From: Candidatus Goldiibacteriota bacterium HGW-Goldbacteria-1
GTDB lineage: Bacteria > Oederibacteriota > PGYV01
Assembly: GCA_002839855.1 (NCBI GenBank)
Contig: PGYV01000003.1
Span: forward strand, 1 to 64,000
Direction of reading: 5' to 3'
DNA: 64,000 nucleotides
A program made the translations under genes and the position numbers. The notes beneath the pieces were generated by a model. That model searched no databases. It had not been told where the DNA came from and was given only the letters and a program-made list of their open reading frames with translations. Positions 27,373-39,503 of this stretch are shown one piece after another; the first letter of the stretch is position 1; each line of letters begins with the position of its first letter.

Positions 27373-28593
27373 ATGATAAAGCGTTTTCTTGAAGAAGTAG
27401 TGTTTTTACCGCAGTTTGGCAGGCAGATGCGGTTTATAGCCGGGCCAAGGCAGTGTGGGAAGACTACGATAGCCGTCAATAAACTTAAAGAAGAGGGAAA
27501 TGAATCATTATATTATAATTGGGACAGGCAGCAGATAAGAAAACGGTATAGAACAGAAGCGGATATTCTGGAAACAGACCTTGCCGGACGGAGCGGGAAG
27601 GGGAAAGTATGGGTGTGTTTTGATGAAATACATAAAATGCCAAAATGGAAAAATATTCTTAAGGATGTTTTTGACACGCACGAAGATAAAGTGAATTTCA
27701 TTGTTACGGGAAGCGCCCGGCTTGATGTCATGCGCAAAGCGGGAGACAGCCTGCTTGGGCGTTATTTTATGTTCAGGCTTAACCCCCTTATGATAACAGA
27801 AGTTTTGGGGAGAAAAATACAGCACATTATGCCTGAAAATAAACCCGCGGATTATGTGGATAAATTGCTGTCAAATACAAAGCAGGAAACAGGAATTATG
27901 GATGATTTTTTATCTCTTAGCGCTTTTCCTGAACCGCTTTTATCAGGAAACCGCGTGGCGGCAGCCAAATGGCATGATAATTATTTTGAAAAGGTGACAA
28001 AGGAAGAACTTAGAGATGTTTCGGCGATAAGAAACCTTGAGTGGGTTATTAATCTGTTATATATGCTGCCGTCAAGAATAGGCTCGCCGCTTTCTCTTGA
28101 ATCTTTAAGGCAGGATCTTGAAGTGAACCACGCTACAGTAAAAAATTATATGAATTATCTTACGCTAACATACGCTGTATTTCAGCTGCAGCCTTTTTAT
28201 GAAAATATAAAGAAATCCATAAAAAAAGAAAAGAAAGCCTATTTTCACAATTATTTTTTGGTTGATAATGAAGCCGCAAGATTTGAAAATTTTATTGCGC
28301 TGGAACTTAAGGCAAGAATAGATTTATGGAACGATGCTACTGCAGATAAATACGGGCTTTTTTATTTAAGAACAAGGGATAAAAAGGAAACCGACTTTTT
28401 AATAACAAAAAATAAAAAGCCATATGTTATGTTTGAAGCTAAACTTTCTGACACTGCGATTGAAGCGCATCATAGGGCAAATTCGGCAGCGCTTGGAAAC
28501 ATTCCTTTTGTTCAGCTTGTGAAACAAAAGGGTGTATTAAGGGCAGACGGAAAAAATTTTTACTGCGTATCTGCCGCCAGGTTTTTGGGATAG
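27373..28593 (+). CDS. AAA+ ATPase with C-terminal DUF4143-type nuclease-like domain
   Basis: The 406-residue protein has Walker A GPRQCGKTT at about residues 24-32, Walker B VWVCFDEIHK at 78-87, and the sensor-like VTGSARLDV. These are typical of the ATPase family that carries DUF4143. The C-terminal part has ETDFLITKNK followed by MFEAKLSD, a PD-(D/E)XK-like arrangement. Members are common in accessory regions and their function is unproven. CAGGAGG precedes ATG 27373. The 32-bp tandem repeats upstream suggest autoregulation. Confidence 0.82.
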   Translation: MIKRFLEEVVFLPQFGRQMRFIAGPRQCGKTTIAVNKLKEEGNESLYYNWDRQQIRKRYRTEADILETDLAGRSGKGKVWVCFDEIHKMPKWKNILKDVFDTHEDKVNFIVTGSARLDVMRKAGDSLLGRYFMFRLNPLMITEVLGRKIQHIMPENKPADYVDKLLSNTKQETGIMDDFLSLSAFPEPLLSGNRVAAAKWHDNYFEKVTKEELRDVSAIRNLEWVINLLYMLPSRIGSPLSLESLRQDLEVNHATVKNYMNYLTLTYAVFQLQPFYENIKKSIKKEKKAYFHNYFLVDNEAARFENFIALELKARIDLWNDATADKYGLFYLRTRDKKETDFLITKNKKPYVMFEAKLSDTAIEAHHRANSAALGNIPFVQLVKQKGVLRADGKNFYCVSAARFLG

Positions 28594-28886
28594 TAGTAAG
28601 GGGCGCGGGTCTTTCCCGGCACTATGGCGGAGACGGCAGCCCGCGGCAGTTATTTTGTCTTAGACTTGTAGGGGCGGCGCTCCCGCGCTGTCCGGCTTTT
28701 TTGTTTTTGTATTTGTTGTCCTTTTGACCTTTGTTTTTATTTCTGTCCCTCTGTGCATCTGTCCCTCGGCCTTACTTCCGTCCCTTGATTTCTTATTTAA
28801 ATCTTTCCAATCTTTAATATTTGATGTAATATAAAAAAGTCCGGGGAGTTTAAAATTTTAGTTTGGGTATGAATTAAGGAGATGTT
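28594..28886. repeat. Spacer with three dispersed palindromic repeats
   Basis: Positions 28603-28647 hold a copy of the GCGGGTCTTTAGCCCGC hairpin whose loop contains a 23-bp insertion. Positions 28673-28692 hold a GGCGGCGC/GCGCTGTC hairpin, and 28741-28768 a GTCCCTCTGTGCATC motif. AAGGAG at 28876-28881 is the ribosome binding site of the next gene. No gene was found. Confidence 0.7.
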
Positions 28887-30848
28887 TTGTATTTAAATGG
28901 GAGTGTAAACAGGGGATACAACACACAGCGATATTTACAGCAGCTTCAGGCAATGTATTACCTGTTGTTTATGGCTGTATTGCATAATATGAAGCTCCGC
29001 CTTTCATACGCCCCGGCTGATGTCAATTATACGGTTTATGAAAAATACGATGGCATAAATGAAAGCGACTTTAATTATAAGCACAACTGGGCGGCAGAAG
29101 GCTATACAAGCCAGGCAAAGGTTCCCGGCAATGCGGGGGCTTCGCTGGGTATAGAACCGCTGTTAAGCGGAACAGTCTGGTACAAGTACAGGCTTATATA
29201 TAACAGAAATTCAAGTGCAGGTTACCAGGTAAAACTTTTCTTTGGCCCGTACAATAATACAGTGGCGGATAATATGGTTACAATTGATAATCCCTTTAAT
29301 GCCCCTGGAACCTGGATATTCAGGCTTGGCAATGCGAATGTTGACAGCATGAAGATATACAGCAAAGACCTGCTTGCCACAGCCGAAGTGCCGGGTGTAA
29401 GTAAAAACGGATATGAAACCACAACAGATTATGACAGTATTCACAATATAACAAATAAGTCCTTTAAAAATCAGCTGTATATAGGTGGGACGGTATATAA
29501 CAGAAATTCATCTTACAACAGGGATTATTTCTATGACCCTGCGCGTCCGCATGCTGTGGATCACATGAATAATAACGGAAGTTTCTTCAGGCAGTATGAA
29601 TATGACGCCAATGGGAATGTGACACAGCACAATAATTACAACAGGCAGATATTATGGGATGAAGAAAACAGGATAAAACAGGTTGCAGACACTTTCCCGG
29701 GTGATGTGCATGTATCAGAAAATTATTTCTATGACCATAAAGGTGAAAGGAAGATAAAGGTTAATAATTATAATACAGGGACGCCGCAGCTTGGGGATGT
29801 GGCAATGTATGTAAATCAGTACGCGGCAATGTGGTTAAGCAATGCGAACAACATAAACACGTACACAAAGAACTATTATGTTGGAAATCAGCGCGTTGCA
29901 AGCAGAATAATGTCAGACGCCGCATGCGCAACAGGCACGGATAGTTTTGATTTTACATATTTCTATGGAACAGACCATCTTGGCTCGTCAACGTATTTGA
30001 CAAACGCTTTAGGCGATATTGTGGAGCATAACGAGTATACGCCATGGGGTGAAATATGGCAGACCGAAGACAGTATGCCGGTGGTATCAGTTGGGGAGCT
30101 GAACAATCCGTTTAAGTTTACGGGCAAGGAAATGGACAGGACAGGCCTGTACTATTACGGCGCCCGTTACTACGATCCACAGGTTTCGTTGTGGATGAGC
30201 CCGGACCCGATACTTGATAAGTATCTGCCAAGTGCGGGAGAAAAAGATAACAGCAAACTACCGGGAATGGGTGGGGTATTTAATTCGTTAAACCTTGGGT
30301 TGTACACTTATACACTGAATAATCCAATGATTTTTATAGATCCTGATGGGAATGTAACTATTTCTATTACAGGTGCTTCATCAGTTAATGTAGCTGCTGG
30401 GATTTCTTATAATAAAGGTTTTATATTCGGTGTAACTGATGATGGGAAATTTGAATGGGGAACTACTGAAACGGTTGCGCCGATAGGCGAAACAAACGCA
30501 GGATTATTTATGGGTTTGCGAATGGAATTTACAACTTCAAATACTATTGAAAACACTTCTGGCACTGGTTTTGACGCATTTGGGAACCTTGCATTTGGTA
30601 TCGCAGAAGCAGGTGCCGAACAAGGAATTGGTGGTATTGTAAATGATAATGGAGATGTTATTTGTGGTGACAATGGGTATATCTCTTATGCGGTTCAGGC
30701 AGGATTTAGCGCGAGTGTACTTCCTGTTGCGGGTGGTGTTGAAAAATCTTTTACGACAATAGATAAAGCTAATGAAGGTGATGGTAAAATGTTATTAAGA
30801 TATATTATTGGAGATTATAACAAACCTAATCCGGGGGTTACATATTAA
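28887..30848 (+). CDS. Truncated RHS-repeat protein with variable C-terminal domain
   Basis: The 653-residue frame has a non-RHS N-terminal part (to about 240) with a lectin-like beta domain. It then has YD-repeat sequence (FFRQYEYDANGNVTQHNNY) and the RHS core FYGTDHLGSSTYLTNALG, YTPWGEIW, YYYGARYYDPQVSLWMSPDP and NPMIFIDPDG (ending near 30350). The last 165 residues form a glycine-rich variable domain, unassigned, where toxins usually lie. A secretion signal and most repeats are missing, so it is a fragment of a larger ancestor. Around 28905-28980 the +2 frame reads FTAASGNVLPVVYG, hinting at an older frameshift. The start is TTG 28887 after AAGGAG. Confidence 0.75.
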   Translation: MYLNGSVNRGYNTQRYLQQLQAMYYLLFMAVLHNMKLRLSYAPADVNYTVYEKYDGINESDFNYKHNWAAEGYTSQAKVPGNAGASLGIEPLLSGTVWYKYRLIYNRNSSAGYQVKLFFGPYNNTVADNMVTIDNPFNAPGTWIFRLGNANVDSMKIYSKDLLATAEVPGVSKNGYETTTDYDSIHNITNKSFKNQLYIGGTVYNRNSSYNRDYFYDPARPHAVDHMNNNGSFFRQYEYDANGNVTQHNNYNRQILWDEENRIKQVADTFPGDVHVSENYFYDHKGERKIKVNNYNTGTPQLGDVAMYVNQYAAMWLSNANNINTYTKNYYVGNQRVASRIMSDAACATGTDSFDFTYFYGTDHLGSSTYLTNALGDIVEHNEYTPWGEIWQTEDSMPVVSVGELNNPFKFTGKEMDRTGLYYYGARYYDPQVSLWMSPDPILDKYLPSAGEKDNSKLPGMGGVFNSLNLGLYTYTLNNPMIFIDPDGNVTISITGASSVNVAAGISYNKGFIFGVTDDGKFEWGTTETVAPIGETNAGLFMGLRMEFTTSNTIENTSGTGFDAFGNLAFGIAEAGAEQGIGGIVNDNGDVICGDNGYISYAVQAGFSASVLPVAGGVEKSFTTIDKANEGDGKMLLRYIIGDYNKPNPGVTY

Positions 30849-32385: not shown

Positions 32386-33672
32386 GTGAAGAAAAAGCTT
32401 TTTGTAGTTTTTTCGTTAGTTGTTTTAGCCTCGCTTTTTGTGTTTACAGCCTGCAACAAACCCCTTGGAGGAACCAACAAAATCAGGTTCATGTATTGGG
32501 GAGATGTAACTGAAATTGAAATCATAAACCAGGCAATCGCGGAATTTGAAAAAGCAACAGGCGTTAAGGTAAGCGCGGAAAGGGCCCCTTCGGGACCGCC
32601 TTACATGGAAAAGGTATTAACACAGTTTGCGGGCGGAAGCGCGCCTGACGTGCTTTTCATAGAAGCAAACAATTTCAAGAAATTCGCGGAAAAGGGTGTT
32701 TTAGAAGACCTTACACCTTATCTTGCAAACGAAACAGCATTCAAAAAAACCGATTTTTATCCTGAAATAATCGACAGATTTACCGTGGAAAACAAGTTAT
32801 ATGTCCTTCCAAGAGATATCGCGCCTATCTGCGTTATGTATTACAACAAAGACCTTTTTAAAGCAGCGGGAGTTAAGCCCCCGACAGACAACTGGACATG
32901 GGCTGAATTTCTTGCCAAAGCAAAAGCGCTTGTAAAGAAAGACGCGCAGGGAAGGATAGTACAGTTTGGATTTGTGGATGATTGGCCTATCTGGGAATCA
33001 TGGGTATTAAGCAACGGCGGATCGCTTGTTGACAACGTAAAGAACCCCACAAAGTGCACACTTGATAAGAAAGCGGCTTATGACGCCATTCAGTTCAGGG
33101 CGGATATGATACATAAGTTTAAAGTTATGCCTTCGCCTTCCCAGATGACCGCTATGGGCGGAATGGGTTCCGGAGACATGTTCGTATCGGGAAAAGCCGG
33201 TATGTTCTACAGCGGAATATGGAAGACCCCGTCATTCAGGCAGATAAAGGATTTCAAATGGGACGTTGTTATGTTTCCTAAAGGGCCGACCGGAGTAAGG
33301 GCTTTCTCTACAGGCGGATCCGGATATGCCATCACAAACAAATCAAAAAATAAAGAAGCGGCATGGAAGCTTGTAACATATCTTGCCGGAGTAAAAGGCC
33401 AGACACAGCTTGCACAGACAGGGCTTGCACAGCCTGCCATGAAGAAAATTGCTGAATCACCGGCTTTCCTTGACGGGCAGGATCCTAAGAACAAAAAGAT
33501 TGTCCTTGCAGGCGTTAAGTATGTTAAGTTTGCTCCGCTGGTATCAGACTGGGAAGAAATCAACGTAAGCATGATTGCACCCAACTTTGATAAGATCTGG
33601 AGCGGCAAAGCAACTGCAAAAGAAATATGCCAGGAAATAGTGCCGGAAATTAATGAAAATTACTTTGAATAA
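32386..33672 (+). CDS. ABC sugar transporter, extracellular solute-binding lipoprotein
   Basis: The 428-residue family 1 binding protein has a lipoprotein signal with cysteine in VFTACNK (about residue 23). RFMYWGDVTEIEIINQAIAEFEKATG and FAGGSAPDVLFIEA are typical of the maltose/oligosaccharide-type binding fold, as are MYYNKDLFKAAG and the C-terminal AWKLVTYLAG. It delivers a sugar to the two permeases encoded next. The substrate is unknown. The start is a GTG at 32386 after GGAGGA. No ATPase is encoded in the operon, so a shared MsmX/MalK-like ATPase elsewhere is likely. Confidence 0.9.
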   Translation: MKKKLFVVFSLVVLASLFVFTACNKPLGGTNKIRFMYWGDVTEIEIINQAIAEFEKATGVKVSAERAPSGPPYMEKVLTQFAGGSAPDVLFIEANNFKKFAEKGVLEDLTPYLANETAFKKTDFYPEIIDRFTVENKLYVLPRDIAPICVMYYNKDLFKAAGVKPPTDNWTWAEFLAKAKALVKKDAQGRIVQFGFVDDWPIWESWVLSNGGSLVDNVKNPTKCTLDKKAAYDAIQFRADMIHKFKVMPSPSQMTAMGGMGSGDMFVSGKAGMFYSGIWKTPSFRQIKDFKWDVVMFPKGPTGVRAFSTGGSGYAITNKSKNKEAAWKLVTYLAGVKGQTQLAQTGLAQPAMKKIAESPAFLDGQDPKNKKIVLAGVKYVKFAPLVSDWEEINVSMIAPNFDKIWSGKATAKEICQEIVPEINENYFE

Positions 33673-33705: not shown

Positions 33706-34626
33706 ATGAGCACGAATACTGTTCCGGTACATCATAAATCAGGCTCGCATGAAGCGCTGTGGGGGTATGTTTTTATAGGCCCCTGGATTTTGGGTATGAT
33801 TCTTTTTGTTGGCGGCCCAATTATCGCGTCTTTAGTGCTTGCTTTTTGTAAGTGGGACCTTTTAACGCCGATTCAATTTGTGGGGTTTGAAAACTTCGCA
33901 CATATGTTTGGCGATAAAAAGTTCTGGATAAGTTTGGGAAACACGTTCTATTACACTTTATTCGCGGTTCCGCTTGGTATTGTGGGTTCCATCATGGTAG
34001 CCCTGTTAATGAACCAGGACTGGAAAAGCGTAAGGCTGTTAAGGACAATATATTATCTTCCTTCTGTTACTGCCGGTGTTGCGTCGGCTATTATCTGGAT
34101 GTGGCTTTTTAATCCGGATTTCGGCCTTATCAACTATGGTTTAAGTATGCTGGGAGTAAAAGGGCCTCTTTGGCTTGCTGATGAAAACTGGTCAAAACCG
34201 GCGCTTGTTGTAATGAGCCTTTGGGGTGTAGGCGGAAACATGATTATTTATCTTGCCGGCCTTCAGGGAGTGCCCAGGCAGTTATATGAAGCCGCGGAAA
34301 TTGACGGCGCGGGAATATGGCATAAGTTCAGGCACGTGACAATTCCTATGTTAACACCCGTTATTTTCTTTAACTTAATCATGAGCATAGTATGGTCGTT
34401 CCAGATATTCACGCAGGTCTATACAATGACCGGCGGGCAGGGCGGTCCGGCGGATTCCACGCTTGTGCTTGTTCTGTATATTTATCATTACGCTTTTAAA
34501 TATCATCATATGGGATACGCCTGCGCTCTTGCATGGGCGCTTTTCTTTGTCATAATGTTATTTACCTTCCTGCAGTTTAAGATTGCCGGCGGCTGGGTGC
34601 ATTATGAAGGCGAACTTAAGAAATAA
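33706..34626 (+). CDS. ABC sugar transporter permease (MalF/UgpA type)
   Basis: The 306-residue permease has six predicted membrane helices, beginning at about residues 20-45. The EAA loop EAAEIDGAGIWHKFRHVTIP (near 205-224) contacts the ATPase. GGPADSTLVLVLYIYHYAF is the usual late segment. GGAGG precedes ATG 33706. It forms a heterodimer with the next gene product. Confidence 0.92.
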   Translation: MSTNTVPVHHKSGSHEALWGYVFIGPWILGMILFVGGPIIASLVLAFCKWDLLTPIQFVGFENFAHMFGDKKFWISLGNTFYYTLFAVPLGIVGSIMVALLMNQDWKSVRLLRTIYYLPSVTAGVASAIIWMWLFNPDFGLINYGLSMLGVKGPLWLADENWSKPALVVMSLWGVGGNMIIYLAGLQGVPRQLYEAAEIDGAGIWHKFRHVTIPMLTPVIFFNLIMSIVWSFQIFTQVYTMTGGQGGPADSTLVLVLYIYHYAFKYHHMGYACALAWALFFVIMLFTFLQFKIAGGWVHYEGELKK

Positions 34627-34661: not shown

Positions 34662-35906
34662 ATGGAGCAGAAGAGCAGCTTCTGGGCAAGTAAAAAGAAG
34701 CAGGACATGGCAGTAAGCCTGGTCCTTTATATTATAGCGTGGATGGGCGCGCTGATATTTGTTATACCGCTTGTATGGATGGTATCAACGTCGCTTAAAT
34801 ATCCCACTGATATTTTTACAACACCGCCAAAATGGCTTCCTATATCGGATGTGTCATGGAAACTTGACCCCGATGTACGTTCCCAGCAGGCAGGCTATGT
34901 AAAGATAGCAAGGGGCGCTAACGGCACCAACATAATTTATCTTATGTCCGGGCTTAAAAAGAGCGCAAAGGTATTAAGCACAATGACATTGTCCGGAGCC
35001 GCCCGGTTAAATGTTCAGAAGGGCGACTATGTGGCGGAAGGCGATATTATTGCCAAATTGCCCACATCCGGCGTTGCAAAGGTAAACGGCAATATTATAA
35101 TGATAGCGGATAAAGAAGGTAATGTTATAGACAGGATAGAAGCACCAATGAATTCCAAGGTAAAAGTCGCGACAGGCGACAGGGTAACCAAGGATGACAA
35201 GGTGGCTGTAATTCCTCCGCAGTGGCATAACTATGTGGAAGCGTGGAGCCCCAAAGCTTTAAGCGAAACTTTCACCACATACCTGCTTAACACCATCTTT
35301 ATAACTGTCTGCGGGCTTTTAGGAACCCTTTTAAGTTCTGCTTTTGTCGCGTACGGTTTTTCAAGGTTTAAGTTTCCTTACAGGGATCAGCTGTTCCTTA
35401 TAATGGTAAGCACCATGATGATTCCCGCGCAGGTAACAATGATACCCACGTTCATCCTTTTTAAATACATAGGATGGATTGATACTTTTGCCCCGCTTAT
35501 TGTCCCCACGTTCTTTGGCGGCGGCGCGTTTAACATCTTCCTCATGAGGCAGTTTTTCATGACAATTCCTTATGAACTTGATGACGCTGCAAAAATTGAC
35601 GGCTGCAACTATTTCCAGATTTTCTGGCTTATACTTATGCCGCTTGTAAAACCGGCGCTTGTCACAATCGCGATATTCGGATTTGTTTACAACTGGAACG
35701 ACTTCATGAACCCGTTAATTTACCTTAACAGTTCCAGCAAATACACCCTTGCGCTTGGGCTTCAGACATTTACCACAATGTACGGCAGCTACTATCACCT
35801 TATGATGGCGGCTTCAACGATAGTCCTTCTTCCGATACTTATAGTGTTCTTCTTCGGGCAGAAGTACTTCATAGAAGGCGTAGCAACAAGCGGATTAAAA
35901 GGCTAA
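34662..35906 (+). CDS. ABC sugar transporter permease (MalG type) with inserted barrel-sandwich-like domain
   Basis: At 414 residues this is about 130 longer than normal MalG-type permeases. TM1 (about 17-42) is followed by the usual KYPTDIFTTPPKWLP, then an insertion at about 62-186, before NYVEAW and five more helices. The EAA loop is ELDDAAKIDGCNYFQIFWLI. The insertion contains two similar half-motifs, LNVQKGDYVAEGDIIAKLP and VKVATGDRVTKDDKVAVIP, like biotinyl/lipoyl barrel-sandwich hybrids but without the modified Lys context. It would face the periplasm between TM1 and TM2. GGAGG precedes the ATG, and a terminator follows. Confidence 0.88.
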   Translation: MEQKSSFWASKKKQDMAVSLVLYIIAWMGALIFVIPLVWMVSTSLKYPTDIFTTPPKWLPISDVSWKLDPDVRSQQAGYVKIARGANGTNIIYLMSGLKKSAKVLSTMTLSGAARLNVQKGDYVAEGDIIAKLPTSGVAKVNGNIIMIADKEGNVIDRIEAPMNSKVKVATGDRVTKDDKVAVIPPQWHNYVEAWSPKALSETFTTYLLNTIFITVCGLLGTLLSSAFVAYGFSRFKFPYRDQLFLIMVSTMMIPAQVTMIPTFILFKYIGWIDTFAPLIVPTFFGGGAFNIFLMRQFFMTIPYELDDAAKIDGCNYFQIFWLILMPLVKPALVTIAIFGFVYNWNDFMNPLIYLNSSSKYTLALGLQTFTTMYGSYYHLMMAASTIVLLPILIVFFFGQKYFIEGVATSGLKG

Positions 35907-35990: not shown

Positions 35991-36962
35991 GTGAAGCGCT
36001 ATATCTTTAAAAGGCTGTTGCTTGCAATACCGGTGCTGTTTGGTATTACAGTAATCACTTTTTTTATTATCCACCTGACGCCCGGCGGTTTTACCGCGGT
36101 TAACATGCAGATGGATATCCGTACATCGCCGGATTCTATAGAACGCATGCGCCATTTGTACGGGCTGGATAAACCCATATTGGTACAATATGTGGAATGG
36201 ATTGGAAGGACAGTAACTTTTAATTTTGGGGAATCTTTTATTGACCACAGGCCGGTGCTGCACAAGGTGGCAGAACGCCTTCCCGCCACGCTGCTTTTAA
36301 ATGTGCTGTCGCTTGCGCTGGTGTTCTTTTTTGGAATAATACTGGGGGTAATTTCTGCGGTAAAAAGAAACACGGCGGCGGACAAAATTATAACGGTCTT
36401 TACTTTTATAGGCTACTCTATACCCACTTTCTGGCTTGCGCTTCTGCTTATGCTATTTGTATCAGTCAAGGCGGGGCTGCTTCCCGTATCCGGCATGGTA
36501 TCAATTGATTTTGATTATATGACCCTGCCGCAGAAAATAGCTGACCTTGCGTCGCACCTGATACTGCCGCTTATTGTCACTTCAATAGGGGGGCTTGCTT
36601 ACATCTCCCGCTTTGTAAAATCCGGAATGATAGAAGCTCTTTCCCAGCAGTATATCAGGGCGGCATACGCCAAAGGGCTTGATAAAAAAACCATATTATA
36701 CAGAAGCGCGCTGAAAAACAGCCTGCTTCCCGTAATTACGCTTTTGGGAATGTCCATCCCGGGGTTAATCGGCGGAAGTTTTATATTTGAAACCATATTC
36801 GCGTGGCCCGGAATGGGGCGGCTGGCATATGAGTCCGCTTTAAGTTTTGACTATCCGGTAATAATGGGTGTGGTGACAATGGGCGCTGTGCTTACTCTTT
36901 TAGGCAATCTTGCGGCGGACATTGCGTACGCGGCAGTGGACCCAAGGATAAGGTATAAATAA
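35991..36962 (+). CDS. Peptide ABC transporter permease (DppB/OppB type)
   Basis: The 323-residue permease starts with GTG and has the family N-terminus (RLLLAIPVLFGITVITFFIIHL). RFVKSGMIEALSQQYIRAAYAKGL is the EAA-like loop and FIFETIFAWPGMGRLAYESA the C-terminal signature. Its partner follows in a TAATG overlap. The substrate may be a peptide, nickel or a glycan. No binding protein gene is adjacent. Confidence 0.92.
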   Translation: MKRYIFKRLLLAIPVLFGITVITFFIIHLTPGGFTAVNMQMDIRTSPDSIERMRHLYGLDKPILVQYVEWIGRTVTFNFGESFIDHRPVLHKVAERLPATLLLNVLSLALVFFFGIILGVISAVKRNTAADKIITVFTFIGYSIPTFWLALLLMLFVSVKAGLLPVSGMVSIDFDYMTLPQKIADLASHLILPLIVTSIGGLAYISRFVKSGMIEALSQQYIRAAYAKGLDKKTILYRSALKNSLLPVITLLGMSIPGLIGGSFIFETIFAWPGMGRLAYESALSFDYPVIMGVVTMGAVLTLLGNLAADIAYAAVDPRIRYK

Positions 36963-37771
36963 TGAATAAAATGATGACGGCAGGGCTTATTGTTGTGGTT
37001 TTTATAGTGGCTATGGCAATACTTGCGCCTGTGATTTCACCGCGCGATTACAGGGAGCAGGACATTTCGCAGCGCCTGCAGAGCCCTTCCAAAGCCCACA
37101 TAATGGGGACTGACGAACTTGGCAGGGACGTTTTTTCAAGGCTGCTGCGCGGCACAAGGGTCTCTGTATCCGTAGGCATAATGGCGGTTTTAATCTCCGC
37201 GGTGATAGGCGTACTGCTTGGCATAATTGCCGGATATTTTGGCGGCGTAATTGACAACATAATAATGCGCGGCGTGGATATATTTTTAACCGTGCCTACC
37301 TTATTTTTAATACTTATGCTTATCGTTTTTTTAGGCCCTTCCATATTTAATATTGTCATCATAATAGGGCTTACATCGTGGACTGATATCGCAAGGATAG
37401 TAAGGGCGGAAGTTTTATATATAAAGAAACTGCCCTATGTGGAAGCCGCAAAGCTGCTTGGGTTTAAAAAAAGAAGGATAATGTTTCGCCATATCCTGCC
37501 GAATGCTTTTTCGCCGGTGCTTGTATATATCACGTTTGGAATTTCAGGGGCAATTCTTGCGGAATCCGGGCTGTCATTTTTAGGGCTTGGCGTTCAGCCG
37601 CCGGAACCAAGCTGGGGCAATATCCTGACATCGGGAAAAGATTATATAGACACCGCGTGGTGGCTTGTATTGTACCCGGGGCTGTCAATTTTCGCGGCGG
37701 TGTTTTCATTTAACCTTCTTGGTGAAGGCTTAAGGGATTATTTGAACCCCAAGCTGGACAGGGAGGGGTAA
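36962..37771 (+). CDS. Peptide ABC transporter permease (DppC/OppC type)
   Basis: The 269-residue permease has HIMGTDELGRDVFSRLLRGTRVS, diagnostic of OppC/DppC. The coupling loop is YVEAAKLLGFKKRRIMFRHILPN. SGLSFLGLGVQPPEPSWG is near the C-terminus. It is somewhat shorter than typical members (about 300) because the N-terminal tail before TM1 is nearly absent. Its start and stop overlap both neighbours. Confidence 0.93.
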   Translation: MNKMMTAGLIVVVFIVAMAILAPVISPRDYREQDISQRLQSPSKAHIMGTDELGRDVFSRLLRGTRVSVSVGIMAVLISAVIGVLLGIIAGYFGGVIDNIIMRGVDIFLTVPTLFLILMLIVFLGPSIFNIVIIIGLTSWTDIARIVRAEVLYIKKLPYVEAAKLLGFKKRRIMFRHILPNAFSPVLVYITFGISGAILAESGLSFLGLGVQPPEPSWGNILTSGKDYIDTAWWLVLYPGLSIFAAVFSFNLLGEGLRDYLNPKLDREG

Positions 37772-38736
37772 TGGGCATAATTAATGTATCCGACCTGACA
37801 GTGAAATATAAAGTTAAGAAAAATTTTATAACCGCGGTTGCCGGTGTGTCGCTTGATATTTCGGCGGGAGAATCAGCGGCAATTGTCGGCGAATCCGGGT
37901 GCGGAAAGACCACGCTTGCAAACGCGCTGTTAAAACTTCTTCCGGAAAATGCCGTGGTGACGGGTTCGGTTTTTATGGACGCAATGGATGTGTTAAACGC
38001 GGATGAAGAAAGGTTAAGAAGCATTAGGGGTAAAACCGCGGGTATGATATTTCAGGAACCGGGGGCGTCTTTAAACCCGCTGTTTTCAATAAAACAGCAG
38101 ATAGAAGAGACGCTTACGGCGCACTTTGGGAAAATGGCAGCGCCGGCGCTTGAACAAAAATCACTGGAGCTGTTAAATGATGCCGGTATTACGGACGCGC
38201 AGCGTGTGTATAATTCGTACCCGCACCAGTTAAGCGGCGGCTTACAGCAAAGGGTAATGGCCGCAATAGCGCTTTCCTGCAATCCCAAAATTCTGATAGC
38301 GGATGAACCCACAACAGCGCTGGATGTAACCGTTCAGGCGCAGATAGTTGAACTGCTGAAAAAATTAAAAGAAGAACACAATCTGACATTACTGCTTATA
38401 ACTCACGACCTTCACCTGGCAAATGAACTTGCGTCCAGAATTATAGTTATGTACGCGGGAGAGATAGCGGAAGACGGAGCAATTAAAGATAAAAAATCCG
38501 CGCTGCATCCTTACACCGCGGCGCTTTTTGAAATTATACCGTCGCTGGATTCCAAAAAAAGGCAGTTTACCGTAATACCCGGGGAAGTTGCCAGGCCACG
38601 GGAAGGAAGGGATTTCTGCGCTTTTTCTCCAAGGTGCCCTTATGCGGATGATAAGTGCAGAAGCCAGAAGCCCGAACTTATAGAAGTAAAACCCGGCCAT
38701 TTTGTAAGGTGTTTTTACCCGGGCGGTAAAAAATGA
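37771..38736 (+). CDS. Peptide ABC transporter ATPase (DppD/OppD type)
   Basis: The 321-residue ATPase has Walker A GESGCGKTT, the signature LSGGLQQRV and Walker B ILIADEPTTALDVT. The C-terminal oligopeptide/dipeptide-transporter domain has cysteines in CAFSPRCPYADDKC and HFVRCFYPGG, which in this family can hold an Fe-S cluster. The next ATPase starts four bases before its stop. Confidence 0.93.
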   Translation: MGIINVSDLTVKYKVKKNFITAVAGVSLDISAGESAAIVGESGCGKTTLANALLKLLPENAVVTGSVFMDAMDVLNADEERLRSIRGKTAGMIFQEPGASLNPLFSIKQQIEETLTAHFGKMAAPALEQKSLELLNDAGITDAQRVYNSYPHQLSGGLQQRVMAAIALSCNPKILIADEPTTALDVTVQAQIVELLKKLKEEHNLTLLLITHDLHLANELASRIIVMYAGEIAEDGAIKDKKSALHPYTAALFEIIPSLDSKKRQFTVIPGEVARPREGRDFCAFSPRCPYADDKCRSQKPELIEVKPGHFVRCFYPGGKK

Positions 38737-39503
38737 AAAATATAATTCTGCGTACGGAAAAATTATGCAAGCATTTTATGGCAGAAGGCGCTTTTGGCGG
38801 CGCGCGTTACAGGGTAAACGCGCTTGTTGACGCATCCGTAGAAATTGAAAAAGGCAGAATACTGGCGCTGGTGGGTGAAAGCGGTTCAGGTAAAACCACC
38901 CTTGCCAGAATTATAGCAGGGCTGGAAACGCAGGATTCCGGCGCGGTATTTCTGGACGGAAAAATACCTGACTATAAAAATCCGGCTGAGAGAAGAAAGG
39001 TTCAGTATGTGTTTCAGGACACGTACTACTCCTTAAATCCAAGGATGACAATTGGTAATGTATTAGCCGAACCAATATCAATACACTTTGGGGTAAAGAA
39101 AGAAAATATCAGCGGGAAAATACAGCAAATGCTGCAGTCAGTGGGGCTTGGCGCTGATGTAATGGAAAAATACCCGCATGAACTGTCAGGCGGCCAGCGG
39201 CAAAGGGTGGGCATAGCAAGGGCGTTATCTGTAAATCCGGAACTGTTAATAGCGGACGAACCGGTATCTTCGCTTGACGTCTCTGTTCAGGCGCAGATAC
39301 TTAAACTTTTTTCTGATTTGAACGAGAAAAATGGCATATCAATCATATTTATCACGCATGATTTAAGAATAGTAAAAAGCCTTGCTGACACGGTGGCAGT
39401 TATGAACAGGGGAGAGATAGTGGAATACGGTGAAGTGGATGAAGTGTATTCAAACCCGCGCAGTGAATATACGAAGACGCTGCTTGGCGCGGTGAAGGGG
39501 TAG
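38733..39503 (+). CDS. Peptide ABC transporter ATPase (DppF/OppF type), short form
   Basis: The 256-residue ATPase has Walker A GESGSGKTT, signature LSGGQRQRVG and Walker B LLIADEPVSSLDVS. The YVFQDTYYSLNPRMTIGNVL segment is typical of OppF. It ends at TKTLLGAVKG, so the usual C-terminal cysteine-rich extension of about 60 residues is missing. Only OppD carries it here. It is the last gene of the operon. Confidence 0.91.
   Translation: MKNIILRTEKLCKHFMAEGAFGGARYRVNALVDASVEIEKGRILALVGESGSGKTTLARIIAGLETQDSGAVFLDGKIPDYKNPAERRKVQYVFQDTYYSLNPRMTIGNVLAEPISIHFGVKKENISGKIQQMLQSVGLGADVMEKYPHELSGGQRQRVGIARALSVNPELLIADEPVSSLDVSVQAQILKLFSDLNEKNGISIIFITHDLRIVKSLADTVAVMNRGEIVEYGEVDEVYSNPRSEYTKTLLGAVKG

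Follow-up and report, generated by a model that had tools for sequence, protein, structure and literature searches.

A tandem HABAS insertion in the P1 loop of a MalG-type permease, kept within one order of Goldbacteria

Why a sugar-importer permease should carry some 125 additional residues between its first two membrane segments was the question raised by a gene at positions 34662-35906 of a 64,000-nucleotide stretch of Candidatus Goldiibacteriota DNA (the whole stretch is called the window here, and the importer genes, their parts and the downstream operon given by coordinates below lie on its + strand). The open reading frame encodes a MalG/UgpE-type CUT1 permease of 414 amino acids with an insertion in its P1 loop, and a PDB sequence search gave E. 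coli MalG (2r6g_G) and SugB (7cad_B) as the closest solved structures. The transporter family PF00528 (BPD_transp_1; 6e-21, 75.4 bits against a cut-off of 26.4) matched residues 228-404 only, and an EAA-like motif, as expected of a CUT1 permease, was present (DDAAKIDGCNYFQIF). The TM1 region was placed at residues 14-48 (34701-34805) by a hydropathy scan, with a positively charged N-terminus, and TM2-TM6 together with the EAA loop at 35268-35903 by sequence reading, Pfam and hydropathy.

The neighbouring genes are those of a sugar importer. A GanS/MalE-like CUT1 solute-binding lipoprotein with a lipobox-like FTAC (32386-33672; PF01547, 7.5e-47) is followed by a MalF/UgpA-type partner permease of 306 amino acids (33706-34626; PF00528, with UgpA as the best NCBIfam match), which has six hydrophobic segments and is without the large MalF-P2 loop. 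Downstream, at 35991-39503, open reading frames and neighbourhood comparison delineated a dppBCDF-type peptide transporter operon that is kept in this place across the order. The gene order SBP-malF-malG was kept in the order-mates, with the exception of family f5, and the block mnmG-rlmN-SBP-malF-malG-dppBCD was common to most order members examined; given this shared block and synteny, inheritance looks vertical. Upstream of the binding protein gene, rlmN and mnmG are found in most order members; in the window this place (27373-30848) is taken by a gene for an AAA_14/DUF4143 ATPase and an RHS-repeat-like one.

The extent of the insertion was determined by alignment with two insert-free permeases (L022 and L023; 298-302 amino acids, with a membrane part about 70% identical to that of the window MalG). 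The additional segment is in-frame, lies between TM1 and TM2, is flanked exactly by PPKWLP and PPQW, and comprises residues 61-184 (34842-35213). A sequence-only reading of the window had proposed about 125 extra residues at 34845-35219 with two hemi-motifs, and had guessed at a barrel-sandwich-like fold; the alignment bore out the extra residues and moved their limits by only a few bases, and both hemi-motifs proved real, at residues 118-130 (VQKGDYVAEGDII) and 169-181 (VATGDRVTKDDKV). Extended to 17 residues, the first of these (LNVQKGDYVAEGDIIAK) agreed with 9 of the 9 constrained positions of the published GD-box-like motif of HABAS (hammerhead/barrel-sandwich hybrid, SBHM) domains. The full motif occurred at least once in 8 of 12 homologous inserts and in 0.07% of shuffled inserts, which places it beyond chance. 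Two units, each with a GD-box-like motif at its end, could be delimited: repeat A at residues 71-134 (34872-35063), ending in LNVQKGDYVAEGDIIAK, and repeat B at residues 135-184 (35064-35213; HHalign and motif scan), ending in VKVATGDRVTKDDKVAV, a motif that is degenerate in the window and complete in many order-mates. The two units matched each other at 97.5% in HHalign and, judged by motif and profile comparison, the insert is a tandem repeat of two HABAS units. Cysteine was found in the insert of no member.

Structure prediction agreed with the guess as to fold. Given only the insert sequence and 12 homologous rows, AlphaFold2 produced a confident all-beta model (pLDDT 91.6, pTM 0.76) with about four to five predicted strands per unit and no helix. 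In a full-length model the insert was again the confident part (75-87) and the membrane part was poor, for which reason that model was left out of any reasoning about orientation. Foldseek searches with the insert model returned RNA polymerase beta' in all of the top 50 places, and the SI3 insertion of beta' headed the list for both models. The match to SI3 had a probability of 1.00 with a global TM-score of 0.3-0.4 and an rmsd of about 10 A over both units, as would fit similar units that differ in their relative orientation.

Sequence profiles pointed to the same relatives. Searched against all PDB sequences, the insert profile ranked RNA polymerase beta' chains first (1.3e-10), followed by the NusG insert of T. 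maritima (0.004) and an M23 peptidase (0.027); a single-sequence phmmer search reached 0.004 at best, so that the value of 1e-10 is obtained with the profile only. Scores against whole beta' add up several repeats (in E. coli beta', a single stretch gives about 17 bits), and the value of about 1e-6 against 2auk and 4iqz, structures of E. coli SI3 by itself, was therefore taken as the fair figure. Nearly all profile matches outside MalG in the sampled genomes were RpoC, the remainder being one RnfC-like ORF and a few others, each about 300 residues long, which we take to be M23 proteins. HHalign gave 93-98.7% between the insert units and RpoC units. In a 2024 paper (PMC11515920), the defining features of the HABAS domain (CATH 2.40.50.100) are an open sheet of four strands and the GD-box-like motif, and more than 70% in HHalign to known HABAS profiles is taken as a sign of homology, a level that the insert units exceed. 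By profile and predicted fold, the insert is thus closest to repeats of the SI3 type in RNA polymerase beta', and lipoyl carriers, adaptors and M23 peptidases rank behind these; the adaptor proteins and biotinyl/lipoyl carriers that the sequence-only reading named as bearers of such folds are not its nearest relatives.

The likeness to SI3/SBHM repeats (2auk, 4iqz) extends to their arrangement as tandem units, to the GD-box-like motif that each unit carries at its C-terminal strand, and to their position in a loop of a larger protein; the host here, by contrast, is an ABC importer permease, and the topology would place the domain in the periplasm. The NusG insert of the DST group (2xha/2xhc, T. 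maritima), next after RNA polymerase, is likewise an insertion in another host within a restricted lineage, but that host is a cytoplasmic transcription factor and the insert is another topology variant (PMC11515920). M23/LytM peptidases and biotin/lipoyl carriers share the broad fold class and gave weak Pfam matches, with clearly lower profile scores.

Insert-bearing MalG orthologues were present in 13 of the 14 sampled genomes of this Goldbacteria order, in families f1, f2, f3, f5 and f6; no orthologue was found in the 14th genome (G005, family f4). No sister family of the phylum showed the insert, and this includes the nearest one, whose permease is about 70% identical; a profile search of 370 other genomes of the sample of relatives did not find it either. 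Neither was it found in further samples of 291 genomes (the phylum of G048, searched without a positive control) and 385 genomes, which may partly overlap with the 370, so that in total about 1,000 other sampled genomes were without it. A scan of GTDB r220 gave matches mostly in Candidatus Goldiibacteriota/Goldbacteria, and relied on one peptide pattern, thus being no proof of absence elsewhere. Among the sampled genomes, the insertion was confined to one order. In sister family f7 the system is similar except that it lacks the insert, which is thus not essential for such importers. Within the order the number of units varies: the f5 insert (L021, genome G006) has three GD-box units as against two elsewhere, in a MalG ORF of 479 residues.

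In close pairs with measurable dS, the insert had a dN/dS of about 0.07-0.14, compared with about 0.02-0.04 in the remainder of the protein, which its dN exceeded 2-9 times. The insert is under purifying selection and is less constrained than the channel. No invariant exposed interface was identified on it.

The site of the insertion is the P1 loop of MalG, a known hot spot for inserts, as unrelated ones occur there in other lineages. Thermotogales MalG1 and MalG2, members of the same protein family, have a hydrophilic region of about 500 residues, and hence much longer, at this site between TM1 and TM2 (PMC2246101). The sequence-only reading knew of no barrel-sandwich domain in ABC sugar permeases, and this held for the material searched, but large inserts at this loop were already on record. 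Among the sampled genomes, MalG homologues with unrelated TM1-TM2 segments of 144-378 residues were seen at six further loci (L034, L035, L037, L041, L047 and L048); Pfam gave nothing firm on such unrelated P1 inserts, the likeness of the L035 insert to an OmpA-like domain being weak (0.07), and the 378-residue insert of L047, which looks similar to the long Thermotogales one, matched no PDB chain and no HABAS family in Pfam. Insertions of HABAS domains are listed for metabolic proteins, MFS and RND transporters and NusG in the part of PMC11515920 used here, and ABC permeases are absent from the hosts named in that part. The HABAS domain and the P1 insertion site are each known separately, and their order-wide tandem combination is new; a HABAS domain inserted into an ABC permease at the level of an order means that one and the same small fold was taken up by a quite different machine and compartment.

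What the domain does may be approached from its location. TM1 and TM2 enclose the first extracytoplasmic loop and the N-terminus is positive, so that the domain should face the periplasm. In E. coli, MalG is reported to be the main partner of the MalE N-lobe, and contacts of MalE with the MalF P2 and MalG P1 loops are reported as well (PMC3150292 and its ref. 89). We propose that an ancestral MalG-type permease of this order gained a HABAS (SBHM-type) domain in P1, which would have been kept as a tandem pair and, in one family, as three units. Standing beside the channel mouth on the periplasmic side, where MalG P1 meets the binding protein in E. coli, the insert would most likely be a rigid docking module without catalytic activity, by which one or more lipid-anchored sugar-binding proteins are captured or oriented on a permease that lacks a P2 capture domain in its MalF partner. 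The proposed working analogue is E. coli MalF-P2, likewise a folded periplasmic loop domain of such an importer that touches the binding protein; it differs in belonging to MalF rather than MalG and in lying between TM3 and TM4, and no homology to the insert was seen.

The number of binding proteins bears on the same proposal, since it exceeds that of matching permeases. Stretches free of permease genes carried binding proteins of the window's subfamily in G003 (three) and G007 (two), 48-59% identical to that of the window, and like orphans were also found in G012 and G004. In all four of these genomes there is one insert-bearing MalG. Such orphans, with no permease nearby, were recorded at loci L152, L153, L154, L155, L156 and L157; those in L154 and L156 adjoin BNR-repeat secreted proteins, which by sequence signature presumably resemble GH74 glycoside hydrolases. 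In several families, one insert-bearing permease would then be used by a group of related orphan binding proteins. The window's genome has only one close binding protein, and permease sharing is therefore not universal. Cellulose-degrading Goldbacteria are on record (PMC7031533). Taken together, the P1 contact in E. coli, the MalF without P2 and the orphan binding proteins set against one insert-bearing MalG favour docking, and from them we infer that the insert touches the binding protein and that several binding proteins share one permease. We see about an even chance that the insert is a docking module, by which one or more lipid-anchored binding proteins are steered onto a permease that they share. 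Against docking stand family f5, with the largest insert and yet no SBP_bac_1 protein found in its 89%-complete assembly, the faster evolution of the insert with no invariant exposed interface identified, and the similar importer of f7 that does without it. Being short and predicted to fold by itself, with an insert-free sister system available, the insert also provides a natural means of testing MalG P1 as a docking site for binding proteins.

The insert might instead be a structural passenger, tolerated because P1 accepts folded domains, with its folding kept by selection against misfolding and not for a function. The unrelated P1 inserts at the six loci above and in the Thermotogales keep this reading in play, and it would agree with the faster evolution of the insert relative to the permease and with its absence from f7. 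A useless insert should be easily lost by deletion, though, and this one is retained by all order members with the orthologue, in five families, under purifying selection and with a gain of a repeat in f5; we consider the passenger reading unlikely.

A further possibility is that the insert binds peptidoglycan, a regulator of cell-wall enzymes or another envelope protein and so positions the importer, in a degenerate LytM-like role. All 12 inserts matched Pfam Peptidase_M23 weakly (best 1.1e-9), and M23 peptidases have the HABAS fold too (PMC11515920). In f5 (L108, G006:C141, 2767-8029), ftsE-ftsX-envC lies directly upstream of malF-malG, in the slot that the binding protein gene occupies in other order members; neither that locus nor the remainder of this assembly, which is 89% complete, yielded an SBP_bac_1 protein. 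The names ftsE and ftsX are our assignment from sequence and gene order. This neighbourhood occurs in a single genome, though, and RNA polymerase beta' stood well above M23 in profile and fold searches (1e-10 versus 0.027), so that a tether to the envelope appears decidedly unlikely. The candidate of an active M23 peptidase was rejected, since the catalytic HxxxD...HxH was evident in none of the inserts and Pfam M23 was below cut-off for the window protein.

Far less probable is a membrane-fusion-like adaptor that reaches toward an outer-membrane partner in the manner of HlyD/RND adaptors. The broad fold class is common to both, and there was a weak match to NHLM_micro_HlyD (0.016); the insert, however, is only about 124 residues long and its model is free of helix, which leaves no alpha-hairpin between lipoyl halves, and the conserved neighbourhood contained no gene recognisable as that of an outer-membrane factor. 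The HlyD-type adaptor was rejected on the missing hairpin, and the outer-membrane partner suggested in the sequence-only reading found no sign in its favour. A biotinylated or lipoylated carrier-like domain, for which the Pfam Biotin_lipoyl match to the window insert (1.8e-6) would speak, was rejected and has next to no chance of being correct, as MKM is absent from 12 of 12 inserts, no DKA hairpin was seen on reading the sequences, the insert is extracytoplasmic by topology and RNA polymerase beta' is the closer relative.

There remains the source of the domain. HABAS insertions in RNA polymerase are argued to be ancient and to have tapered off later (PMC11515920). RpoC matched the insert profile at E<=1e-5 in 9 of the 14 order genomes and in 20 of the 370 others (p=3e-8), an enrichment that may be caused by shared composition and in which the order genomes, as one lineage, are not independent. 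In a tree of repeat units, the A and B units grouped together, and their placement among RpoC units had supports of 0 to 0.78; RpoC profiles from outside the order, which hold more sequences, scored as well or better in HHalign. The insert may have descended from the lineage's own rpoC. The fuller scenario, in which SI3 of this rpoC moved into the permease and now forms a docking hub for several orphan binding proteins, some beside GH74-like proteins, is in our judgement a long shot; if true, a part of RNA polymerase would have been reused in nutrient import. Elsewhere in the sample, the first part of a 1246-residue ORF (L119, genome G348) corresponds to an RpoC N-terminal region with several inserted HABAS-like units, of the kind seen in the Deinococcus-Thermus group.
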